Assembly (NCBI GenBank): GCA_002377645.1
Contig: DFQF01000076.1
Location: 1 to 17,407 of the forward strand
From: Nitrospinaceae bacterium UBA3496
GTDB taxonomy: Bacteria; UBA8248
Length of the DNA stretch: 17,407 bases
Reading direction: 5' to 3'
The position numbers and the translations under genes were made by a program. The first letter of the stretch is position 1; each line of letters opens with the position of its first letter. Shown piece after piece: positions 4,666-8,168 of this stretch. Below the pieces are notes generated by a model. It made no database searches and was not told the origin of the DNA. It saw nothing but the letters and a program-made list of their open reading frames with translations.

Positions 4666-5292
4666 TTGGACAATCAGTATTCAATAGAGAAAATTTATGA
4701 CCGCTGGGGGAAATTTTATGATATTTTCTTCAAGAAAGTTTTTAGCGAGGGCAGAAATGTTGGTGTAGAACTGTTACAACTCAAATCAGACGAGAAACTA
4801 CTTGAAGTAGGTGTGGGCACTGGTCTCTCACTCCCACTATACCCGAAATCTTCTGAGATTATTGGAATCGACATTTCTTCAAAAATGCTAGAAAAAGCGG
4901 AAGAAAAGGTAAGAAGCCTACATCTAGAAAATGTTGATCTTACTGTAATGAATGCTCAAGAAATGGAATTTCCTGACAATTCTTTTGATTGCGTAACTGC
5001 TTGTTATGTAGTCAGTGCAGCACCAGATCCACAGAAGGTAGTATCCGAGATATGTCGTGTTTGTAAACCTAATGGTAGAATCGTATTTATTAATCACTTT
5101 AAAAGTCAGAATTTCTTCCTAGCTAAATTTGAAGAATTGATTAATGGAGCTTGCAAAAAAATCGGATGGGAAACAACTTTAGATCTAGACCCTCTTTTAA
5201 AATCCAATAATTTAACTTTAATAGCACAAGAACGCGTAAACTTATTCAATTATTGGAAAGCTGTTTTATGCATTAATTCTAAAGAGAAATAG
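4666..5292 (+). CDS. Class I SAM-dependent methyltransferase, PmtA-like (probable phospholipid N-methyltransferase)
   Basis: The closest family I recognise is bacterial phosphatidylethanolamine N-methyltransferase (PmtA), which makes phosphatidylcholine by successive SAM-dependent methylations at the membrane. The 208 residues open with IYDRWGKFYDIFFKKVFSEG, as in PmtA. SAM motif I is LLEVGVGTGLSLPLYP (45-60), with acidic GIDIS (67-71), NAQEMEFPDNSFDCV for motifs II-III and RVCKPNGRIVFINHF (131-145). The INHF and following KIGWETTLDLDPLL also resemble PmtA. The start is TTG at 4666 with AAGGAA at 4652-4657, spacing 8; the next gene starts 83 bases downstream. The fold is certain; the substrate is inferred, and a ubiquinone/menaquinone-type or other small-molecule methyltransferase is the main alternative. 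Confidence 0.7.
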   Translation: MDNQYSIEKIYDRWGKFYDIFFKKVFSEGRNVGVELLQLKSDEKLLEVGVGTGLSLPLYPKSSEIIGIDISSKMLEKAEEKVRSLHLENVDLTVMNAQEMEFPDNSFDCVTACYVVSAAPDPQKVVSEICRVCKPNGRIVFINHFKSQNFFLAKFEELINGACKKIGWETTLDLDPLLKSNNLTLIAQERVNLFNYWKAVLCINSKEK

Positions 5293-5374
5293 AGTTTACT
5301 TCATTACTGATTGTTTGAAAATTTACTTGTCATAAATCAGAAAAAATATAAGACAATTTAACGGGAGATTACAC

Positions 5375-5854
5375 ATGTCGGAAACAGAAAATATTATTCA
5401 TACTTCGAAAGCAAAAATTATTAAAGAACCTGGAAAAGCTATGAAAACCGGTTTTTTTGAAGCCTTTCCAGATGATCCTATCCCTTATGGAGTTCATGGG
5501 GGGATTAAGAATTTTTATAAAGTTGAACCAGAAGAAGAAAGACCAGCGACTTTAGACCATCTTGTAGCTTCAGTAGCTGGTTGACTAACTGGAAACATGA
5601 GTAGCGCGCTGGAAGCGCGTGGGATTTCAACCTATCCAGACAATCTAGTTGGACACGTAGAAGGTTATATTGAGAATGTTGAAGGAATGCCTTTAATAAC
5701 AAAAATTAAAATCCACTACACTGTAAAGATTCCAAAAGGGACAAGAGAAGACGCAGAAAGGGCCTTAAAAATACACGATCGGGGTTGCCCCGCAAGTCAA
5801 AGCGTTCAAAGAGGTATTAAAGTAGAGCACACAGCAGAATTCGAAGAAATATAA
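5375..5854 (+). CDS. OsmC-family selenoprotein (in-frame TGA read as selenocysteine)
   Basis: OsmC/Ohr proteins are thiol peroxidases that reduce organic hydroperoxides with a peroxidatic Cys and a second Cys. Here the frame runs from ATG 5375 to TAA 5854 with one TGA at 5582-5584, giving 159 residues with Sec at 70. The surroundings read LDHLVASVAG-U-LTGNMSSALEARGI, which is the conserved helix where OsmC proteins have their first Cys. The second Cys is kept at 138 in IHDRGCPASQSVQRGI. Frame and similarity continue unbroken past TGA: YIENVEGMPLITKIKIHYTVKIPKG is the usual OsmC strand pair. GGGAGA six bases before ATG 5375 gives a good ribosome site, whereas the internal ATG 5597 lies inside the predicted SECIS hairpin and would begin a protein without the active site. 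moaC and gpsA end in TGA, so TGA is not globally reassigned. The pairing with Cys138 implies a selenenylsulfide cycle (inference). OsmC-like selenoproteins have, to my knowledge, been reported from marine metagenomes. selA, selB, selC and selD are not in the window. Confidence 0.88.
5592..5628 (+). promoter_or_regulatory. Putative bacterial SECIS element just downstream of the Sec TGA
   Basis: Bacterial SECIS elements are hairpins inside the coding region, shortly after the UGA, that recruit SelB-Sec-tRNA. Here CGCGC (5605-5609) pairs perfectly with GCGCG (5615-5619) around the loop TGGAA (5610-5614); a G-U pair at 5604/5620 can extend it. A lower helix GAAA (5592-5595) with TTTC (5625-5628) is possible across an internal loop. 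The first loop G is at 5611, 26 bases past the TGA and second in the loop, which fits the general bacterial pattern of a G near the start of a small apical loop about 16-37 bases from UGA. The GC-rich stem stands out in an AT-rich gene. Confidence 0.75.
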
Positions 5855-5859
5855 AAAAT

Positions 5860-8112
5860 TTATTTTATTTTACCTAGGACCTCAAGAACATGGTCTGGGG
5901 TTACAGGGATTTGTTTTATACGCTCTCCAATAGCGTCACTAACAGCACAAGCCACTGCTGCAGCACCCGCAGTACATGGTGGTTCACCTATACCTTTTGC
6001 TCCATATGGACCAAGTCCTTCTCTTGACTCAAGAATAATATTCTCCCATTCTGGTGTTTCTGAAGCAGTAGGTATTAAATAACTTTCAAAATGTTCAGTC
6101 AGGACTTTGCCATCTTCTAGAAGAATTTCCTCCATCAATCCATGGCCTATTCCCATCATTGTACCTCCTTCAAACTGTCCTTCTACATGTTGACTATTAA
6201 TTGCTTGTCCGACATCATGACCAGACCAATAATTTAAAATTATAATCTCACCTGTTTCTTTATTTACTTTGACCTCGGCAGCATGAACACCAAAAACGTA
6301 ATCTAACCAACCACCTCCGGCTCCGTAAATCTCATTACCTTCATATTCATGCTCTCCAAATTTAACATTCCCAGTTGCATGCAACGGAACATTATTTTCT
6401 TTGCACTTTTTGATTACCTCTGTTAGTCTCACTGTTTTTTTAGGACTACCTATAACAGAAATAATACTGTCTTTAATATTAAGATCCTCTTTTGACGCCT
6501 CAAGAAGTTCAGAAGCTACGTCTAATAATCTATCACGTAATTGCATCCCAGCATCAAAAGTAGCACCACCAGAAACCATAGTTTGCCTGCTTCCTGCTGT
6601 AATACCAGCTAGAGGAGTTATGTGTGAATCTGACAAAATTGGAGATATATCTGAAAGTGGAATTCCTAATACTTCTGAGGCAATTTGACAATATGTTTGA
6701 GTTTGGCCTGCACCCACATCTGACGCACCAGCACGAAGTTGAACACTCCCATCATCATCTATAGAAAGAAATGCATCTCCTGCATTGAGTGGCCTACCAT
6801 AACCTCCTATATTACCAATAATTCCAAAACCCTTAACCCAAGGCGAAGGTATCGACCCTTCTATTTTCTTATTTTTCCTTTTAGCAACTTTTTTTGCCAC
6901 AGAGTCAAATAATTCTGGAAGCATAACTCTTCCTGGAACAGGCTGATTCTGCATTAAAGTTTCACCTTTTTTAATTATATTTTTGAGACGAAATTCGGTG
7001 GGGTCTATTTTTAACTTGAGTGCTAATTCATCCATTTGAGACTCATAAGCAAAACATACCTGATTGGCACCAACCCCCCTCATGGCTTCAGTAAAAGGAT
7101 TATTTGTAAGAATTGCTCTAGCTCTTCCTCTTGCATAGGGATAATTATAAGGACCGCCACTAACACATAAAGCTCCTAACAGAAGTCCTTTACTATTTGT
7201 AACATAAGCACCGGCATCCCCAATAATATCAACATCAATTGCAACTAACATTCCATCCTTATTTGCAGCAGAAATGTATTTCATTTCGAAAGGATGTTTT
7301 TTGCTTCCTGAATTTATTGTTTCCTCACGCGTATAGGCCATTCTAACAGGACGACCAGTTTCTATAGATAAAAGTGCTAGGAATGCACCCAACTGAGGGT
7401 GTTCTTTTCCTCCAAATGCCCCCCCAAGCATTGGACAATCGTATCGAACTTTACTTGCAGGAAGACCTAAAACACTAGCAACATTCTTGTAGTTTTCTAT
7501 TCCTTGCGTTGGAACACGTATATTAACCAAACCACTTTCGTCAACCCATGCCATACCTCCTTCAGGCTCAATAAATGCATGATCTACACACGAGGAAGTA
7601 TATGTATTCTCTACAACAACATCTGCATTTTCAATTATTTTATCTATATCAAATTTTTGAGAACTATTAGGTGATTTTAATGTTTTCCAGTCGCATACTA
7701 TTTCAGCATTCTTCAGATCTCTGTAATCATAGGAACCAGACAATTTTTCGTAAGTTATTTTAATTGATTTAGCGGCCTCCTCTGCTAAATCCCTATTTTC
7801 TGCAGCTATAAGAGCGACAGGATCTCCTATATCTAGTACAATCTCGTTGGCTAACAATGGAAAATCAGGATACCTTCCCGCATTTTGCCCAGGAATATCC
7901 TTTGCAGTAAGAACACAATGTACTCCTGGAATAGAAAGTGCTTTTTTTACGTCAATTTTTTTTATACGTGCAGGAGTGATTTCAGCACGAAGTACTTTCC
8001 CATAAAGTTCCCCGGGTAATCGAAAATCGTCACCATAAATTGTATCTCCAACTGCCTTAACTACAGCATCACTTTTAGTAGGGGAGGTTCCAATATAATC
8101 CAATTGCGGCAT
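5860..8112 (-). CDS. Xanthine dehydrogenase/aldehyde oxidase-family molybdopterin-binding (large) subunit
   Basis: Catalytic subunit of a molybdenum hydroxylase, which hydroxylates an aldehyde or N-heterocycle using water. The 750 residues show the N-terminal 'a/b hammerhead' domain (about 18-125; VGDTIYGDDFRLPGELYGKVLR) and the Mo-cofactor domain (about 150-750). Cofactor motifs are GGAFGGKE (230-237), AMRGVGANQ (343-351), GASDVGAGQTQ (462-472) and GPYGAKGIGEPP with the base Glu at 710. The position matching bovine xanthine oxidase Gln767 is Ala468. The frame opens at TTG 8124, but that codon lies within the ribosome site TTGGAG; ATG 8112, six bases after GGAG, is the better start. It follows the Gfo/Idh gene by 56 bases. 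No 2Fe-2S or FAD subunit is adjacent, so the electron path is unknown. Its 3' end meets the OsmC gene with a 5-base gap and no visible terminator. The substrate cannot be told. Confidence 0.93.
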   Translation of the reverse strand: MPQLDYIGTSPTKSDAVVKAVGDTIYGDDFRLPGELYGKVLRAEITPARIKKIDVKKALSIPGVHCVLTAKDIPGQNAGRYPDFPLLANEIVLDIGDPVALIAAENRDLAEEAAKSIKITYEKLSGSYDYRDLKNAEIVCDWKTLKSPNSSQKFDIDKIIENADVVVENTYTSSCVDHAFIEPEGGMAWVDESGLVNIRVPTQGIENYKNVASVLGLPASKVRYDCPMLGGAFGGKEHPQLGAFLALLSIETGRPVRMAYTREETINSGSKKHPFEMKYISAANKDGMLVAIDVDIIGDAGAYVTNSKGLLLGALCVSGGPYNYPYARGRARAILTNNPFTEAMRGVGANQVCFAYESQMDELALKLKIDPTEFRLKNIIKKGETLMQNQPVPGRVMLPELFDSVAKKVAKRKNKKIEGSIPSPWVKGFGIIGNIGGYGRPLNAGDAFLSIDDDGSVQLRAGASDVGAGQTQTYCQIASEVLGIPLSDISPILSDSHITPLAGITAGSRQTMVSGGATFDAGMQLRDRLLDVASELLEASKEDLNIKDSIISVIGSPKKTVRLTEVIKKCKENNVPLHATGNVKFGEHEYEGNEIYGAGGGWLDYVFGVHAAEVKVNKETGEIIILNYWSGHDVGQAINSQHVEGQFEGGTMMGIGHGLMEEILLEDGKVLTEHFESYLIPTASETPEWENIILESREGLGPYGAKGIGEPPCTAGAAAVACAVSDAIGERIKQIPVTPDHVLEVLGKIK

Positions 8113-8168
8113 TTTGTTCTCCAAAAGTTTATAAACTACAAATCATAAAACAACAGTTCAAAGAACTA

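Follow-up and report, generated by a model that had tools for sequence, protein, structure and literature searches.

Selenocysteine (Sec)-containing OsmC proteins with the motif UxxT are known from marine metagenomes, beginning with the Sargasso Sea selenoproteome of 2005 (PMC1088965) and again in 2008 (PMC2398784), and reviews from 2022 and 2026 give the same motif (PMC9312934, PMC13188914). Sec in an OsmC protein is thus not new as a kind. Here we analyzed an osmC-like gene in a 17,407-nt stretch of DNA (referred to as the window, meaning the whole stretch) for which the initial annotation had proposed Sec in place of the peroxidatic Cys. In the scheme for OsmC and Ohr proteins, the residue at the first Cys position attacks and that at the second resolves.

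An osmC-like gene with a TGA codon at the catalytic position

The features on which the reading is based are as follows:

5363 to 5367, + strand: ribosome-binding-like GGGAG, 7 nt ahead of the start codon (ATG, 5375; read from the sequence)
5375 to 5854, + strand: predicted gene for an OsmC-like selenoprotein of 159 residues (Sec70), terminated by TAA (open-frame reading, Pfam match, orthologues in 16 of 18 phylum genomes)
5582 to 5584, + strand: in-frame TGA, codon 70, most likely selenocysteine, aligned with the catalytic Cys of OsmC proteins (frame reading, structure alignments, orthologues)
5786 to 5788, + strand: TGC codon of the second (resolving) Cys, Cys138 (structure alignments, and Cys in all but one of the 31 rows in the relatives' alignment A2, below)

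The frame contains one in-frame TGA before it terminates at TAA. That this TGA sits at the conserved first Cys of OsmC, and that the resolving Cys is kept, was confirmed by alignment to two solved chains: codon 70 aligns with the first Cys of 1ukk (AGC) and 6d9n (SAC), and Cys138 aligns with their second Cys (GCP and VCP). We take the first and second Cys of these chains to be the catalytic residues. Similarity also continues past the TGA, as the initial annotation had stated, with the Pfam OsmC family (PF02566) matching residues 56 to 152 of the read-through protein at an E value of 2.9e-14 and 53.7 bits, compared to a gathering score of 27.5. In an AlphaFold model with Cys in place of Sec (pLDDT 93.3), the predicted OsmC fold is continuous through the Sec site, which lies within helix 59-80, and the best PDB match of the model by Foldseek is the Thermus thermophilus OsmC protein 1ukk (E value of 5.0e-10). 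The Pfam match above the gathering score and the fold, the latter taken from a predicted model, place the protein in the OsmC superfamily.

The TGA is conserved across the phylum and beyond

Of the 18 phylum genomes searched (the source genome included), all labelled as one family and comprising six genera, 16 have the gene, and each of the 16 copies carries exactly one TGA. A profile search again recovered the gene in 16 of the 18 genomes, the window row in that search also counting its own closing TAA, and in neither search was the gene found in G006 or G011. In every locus read, the first TGA falls at the identical codon; with one TGA in all 16 copies, this indicates that the codon is not there by chance. 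Three loci from genomes labelled Syntrophobacteraceae, Deltaproteobacteria and Desulfobacteraceae (L027 to L029) share the TGA at 43 to 47% identity; a second TGA near the end of L028 was taken as its stop. The orthologue alignment (A1) has 17 rows, with the window first, drawn from 20 loci (L026 to L045) after removal of L030 (the window again), L034 (on the contig of L026), L040 (read beyond its end) and L045 (cut by a contig end).

Among nine orthologue pairs, dN was 0.09 to 0.25 on either side of the TGA, and dS was 0.35 to 1.25 in 8 of the 18 comparisons and not computable in the other 10 (returned as −1, saturation). Purifying selection acts on both halves of the gene. A pseudogene, or a TGA that is a sequencing error for TGC or TGT, might be suspected, since the assembly is a draft and the frame has one internal stop, but the low dN versus high dS on either side of the codon and the recurrence of this one TGA in all 16 orthologues from the 18 genomes and in the three deltaproteobacterial loci in effect refute this explanation, to which we assign virtually no probability.

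The source genome encodes the selenocysteine machinery

The source genome is a draft of 2.25 Mb in 100 contigs (91.6% complete, 5.5% contamination). It contains selA (567.6 bits) and selB (401.9 bits), both above cut-off and together on one contig (C23), as well as a tRNA-Sec scoring 76.2 bits, with ARAGORN likewise reporting a tRNA-SeC. Its selD (337.9 bits; L016, 1393-2559, − strand) has an in-frame TGA of its own, in GGUGSK. All of selA, selB, selC and selD, which a bacterial selenoprotein requires, are therefore present. The initial annotation had concluded that the host uses Sec and had named the absence of selB or selC as grounds for giving up the reading; with both genes present, this check did not refute it. 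Identical searches of 14 control genomes gave matches above cut-off for selB in two, tRNA-Sec in five, selA in one and selD in two. Within the phylum, selB was above cut-off in 14 of the 18 genomes. G013 has a contig-edge piece only, and no selB above cut-off was found in the gene-bearing drafts G001, G002 and G010 (91, 67 and 79% complete). All three deltaproteobacterial genomes have selB above cut-off.

Many distant relatives carry Cys at the predicted Sec site

An initial database search returned 23 relatives, 20 of them only 87 to 90 residues long, and the five that were read have their first residue at the TGA position or just beyond it. A profile search that scored the 7996 candidates with the most words in common found at least 3317 relatives, and the best 120 of these are considered here. 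Alignment to homologues, proposed with the initial annotation as a check for Cys at residue 70, showed Cys in 11 and Trp in 14 of the 25 top-ranked new full-length relatives (P0025 to P0049, 137 to 164 residues). Thus, an in-frame TGA stands where homologues carry Cys. The other matches listed in the profile search are mostly 85 to 94 residues long, and the 15 read start at or after the site. Database entries for the branch are mostly stumps, some 85 to 94 residues long, that begin after the TGA.

The relatives' alignment (A2) comprises 31 rows: five of the window lineage, L027 to L029, and 23 of the 25 full-length proteins, P0043 and P0048 having been left out as partial (both with Trp at the site). 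P0002, whose middle around the site is in another frame, was also left out. Among the 23 proteins, the site column holds Cys in 11 and Trp in 12.

The Trp residues in 14 of the 25 full-length relatives raise the question of whether TGA is reassigned to Trp in the source organism (code 4 or similar). Against this, among 18 other window genes whose stops were checked, 5 end at TGA, 10 at TAA and 3 at TAG, which argues that TGA is not reassigned wholesale, as the initial annotation had reasoned; the sel genes and tRNA-Sec are present in the source genome; and 11 of the same 25 relatives carry Cys. The simplest and probable origin of the Trp in the relatives is a TGA that metagenome gene callers read under code 4. 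We give reassignment next to no credence. Such code-4 reading of TGA probably also puts erroneous Trp residues into protein databases.

A slightly less improbable explanation is that translation terminates at the TGA and restarts at the ATG at 5597, 12 nt downstream, to give two short proteins. This ATG opens an 85-residue frame and has a weak GGA ahead of it, and such pieces are stored as proteins in databases. However, full-length Cys relatives run unbroken through the site, and so does the predicted OsmC fold, which would have to be divided inside helix 59-80. We regard two separate proteins as very improbable. The pseudogene, sequencing-error, reassignment and two-protein explanations were set aside on the orthologue TGA codons, dN/dS, the TGA stops, the sel genes and the unbroken Cys relatives.

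A SECIS-like hairpin follows the TGA

Downstream of the codon, folding predicts the following element:

5604 to 5620, + strand: SECIS-like hairpin, predicted 7-bp stem GCGCGCU/AGCGCGU, loop GGA (5611-5613), 26 nt past the TGA (folding, codon conservation)

If the closing U-A pair is left open, the stem has 6 bp and the loop is UGGAA (5610-5614), 25 nt past the TGA. The minimum free energy (MFE) of the hairpin is −10.3 with 40 nt folded and −11.5 with 48 nt folded. As given in PMC13188914, the bSECIS model has a loop of 3 to 9 nt with a G in the first two loop positions, an upper stem of 4 to 16 bp, a distance of 16 to 37 nt from the UGA and an MFE of −7.5 kcal/mol or lower; the loop pattern N1-G-G-N-N2 is also named there. 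In either drawing, the window hairpin falls within these loop, stem, G-position, spacing and MFE limits, and UGGAA corresponds to the named pattern.

Single-sequence folding of the 48 nt showed no significant excess stability over shuffles (z = −0.82; 46 of 200 shuffled sequences did as well), and the relatives L031 (z = −0.94) and L027 (z = −0.69) likewise folded no better than shuffles. L029, one of two deltaproteobacterial loci folded, gave no stable hairpin and was worse than most shuffles (z = +1.25). Rfam at its gathering threshold had no match in the window. Codon usage was compared among 15 orthologue rows (without L026, L027 to L029 and L045). Nine of 116 usable codons had no synonymous variation among rows sharing the residue, and five of these are consecutive, at +7 to +11, inside the hairpin. 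A run so long arose in 9 per 100,000 shuffles, a figure that is not a strict probability because the rows are related and because the window's own residues differ from the frozen run at +7 and +10 (AGC and GAA). The mean codon conservation of the ten codons from +5 to +14 is 0.843 compared to 0.735 elsewhere, but is not unique, since two other spans score higher (0.867 at −27 and 0.865 at +41).

The sel machinery, the TGA in 16 orthologues, the Cys in distant homologues and the SECIS-like hairpin with its frozen codons together strongly support Sec at the catalytic position. Insertion of Sec at UGA70 is by far the best reading of these sequence data, and we consider it very probable. The proposal of Sec in place of the peroxidatic Cys is supported to that extent.

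A subfamily distinct from the known Sec-OsmC proteins

The window protein is like the 2005 OsmC-like selenoprotein (PMC1088965) and the curated family NF041052 (OsmC_like_Se) in belonging to the OsmC family, in having Sec at the catalytic Cys and in keeping the second Cys, but it has UxxG where they have UxxT. It scores 19.9 bits to NF041052, compared to the curated cut-off of 95, and so lies outside that family. Four other OsmC genes in the source genome, with 146.8 to 178 bits to NF041052, have UxxT and one TGA each at the catalytic position. In all four (on contigs C90, C15, C31 and C61; L022 to L025), a hairpin, GCGCGGTACGCGC, lies past the TGA. BLASTP barely aligned the window protein with these paralogues (best E value of 0.013), indicating a separate subfamily. 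By sequence comparison, the UxxG OsmC is a very diverged subfamily that is absent from the catalogues checked and missed by NF041052.

Because the four paralogues are of the UxxT Sec type, all five OsmC-family genes found in this incomplete genome carry a Sec codon. The listing of OsmC matches for the 18 genomes has 150 entries (the genome table gives 152), 94 with one TGA and 56 with none, the place of the TGA having been read for a subset. No UxxG OsmC was found in the available portions of PMC1088965, PMC2398784, PMC13188914 and PMC9312934, and a literature search that covered few subscription papers found no selenoproteins of Nitrospinota or Nitrospina.

Neighboring genes

The genes flanking the osmC-like gene are as follows:

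4666 to 5292, + strand: methyltransferase gene upstream of the OsmC gene (profile matches)
5860 to 8124, − strand: xanthine dehydrogenase-family molybdopterin subunit (profile matches), convergent with the OsmC gene, the stop codons five bases apart

A methyltransferase homologue lies upstream in at least 7 of the 17 loci compared (window included). In at least 5 of the 17, the gene immediately preceding the OsmC gene is another + strand gene, which by eye looks like an EamA-type transporter and which stands between the methyltransferase and OsmC genes in at least L102, L107 and L108. These counts are lower bounds since spurious frames in GC-rich loci hid genes. The function of the OsmC gene does not follow from its upstream neighbors.

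Proposed mechanism and substrate

Whereas the reading frame, site, machinery, conservation and predicted fold come directly from the sequence, we infer insertion in vivo, the redox chemistry and the substrate. SelB and tRNA-Sec, guided by the hairpin just past the codon, would decode UGA70 and a full-length protein with the OsmC fold would be made. By analogy with OsmC/Ohr, Sec70 at the peroxidatic position would attack a peroxide or similar electrophile to form a selenenic acid, which Cys138 would resolve to a selenenylsulfide, and a cellular thiol reductant would then open the latter. We have less confidence in this peroxidase chemistry than in the insertion of Sec, as no clear counterpart of the active-site Arg of Ohr emerged from the alignments. 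That Sec would make the enzyme a faster hydroperoxide reductase, as the initial annotation had suggested, is likewise conjectural.

We moderately favor an organic hydroperoxide as the substrate. Relative to the OsmC/Ohr organic hydroperoxide reductases (TIGR03562; 1ukk, 6d9n), the window protein shares the predicted fold and the two Cys positions but has a Sec codon for the first Cys and scores 26.6 bits to the TIGR03562 peroxiredoxin model, against a cut-off of 85.8. This low score would also suit a Sec-containing protein that acts on a different electrophile (a persulfide or disulfide, for example), an alternative that competes only on the substrate. Not all OsmC-family proteins are tested peroxidases, and one Foldseek match, 6mjn, has "regulator of sulfide" in its title. 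Both OsmC/Ohr redox positions are kept, however, and we view another electrophile as possible although somewhat doubtful.

The Ohr active site presumably has an Arg besides the two Cys positions. Column 24 of A2 has Arg in 26 of 31 rows and Lys24 in the five rows of the window lineage, but this pattern varies with the alignment used, since A1 is gapped differently here and places Lys at this site in two deltaproteobacterial rows of the three as well. Little is thus drawn from the Arg/Lys pattern. A literature search on the OsmC/Ohr peroxidatic cysteine and arginine, which covered few subscription papers, found no papers.

The UxxG branch is a second OsmC subfamily that would have Sec at the identical site. 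Because the branch is stored as post-TGA pieces and missed by the curated Sec model, automatic annotation hides its selenoprotein nature. Sec codons in five of five OsmC genes found in one genome offer a natural Sec/Cys comparison set for the benefit of selenium in OsmC chemistry. We lean, if only slightly, toward the view that this lineage has most of its OsmC repertoire as Sec genes, which would belong to two or more deeply divergent subfamilies (UxxT and UxxG, the latter absent from the catalogues checked), and that, with all five OsmC genes found in the source genome being Sec genes, its OsmC-type redox defense would depend wholly on selenium.
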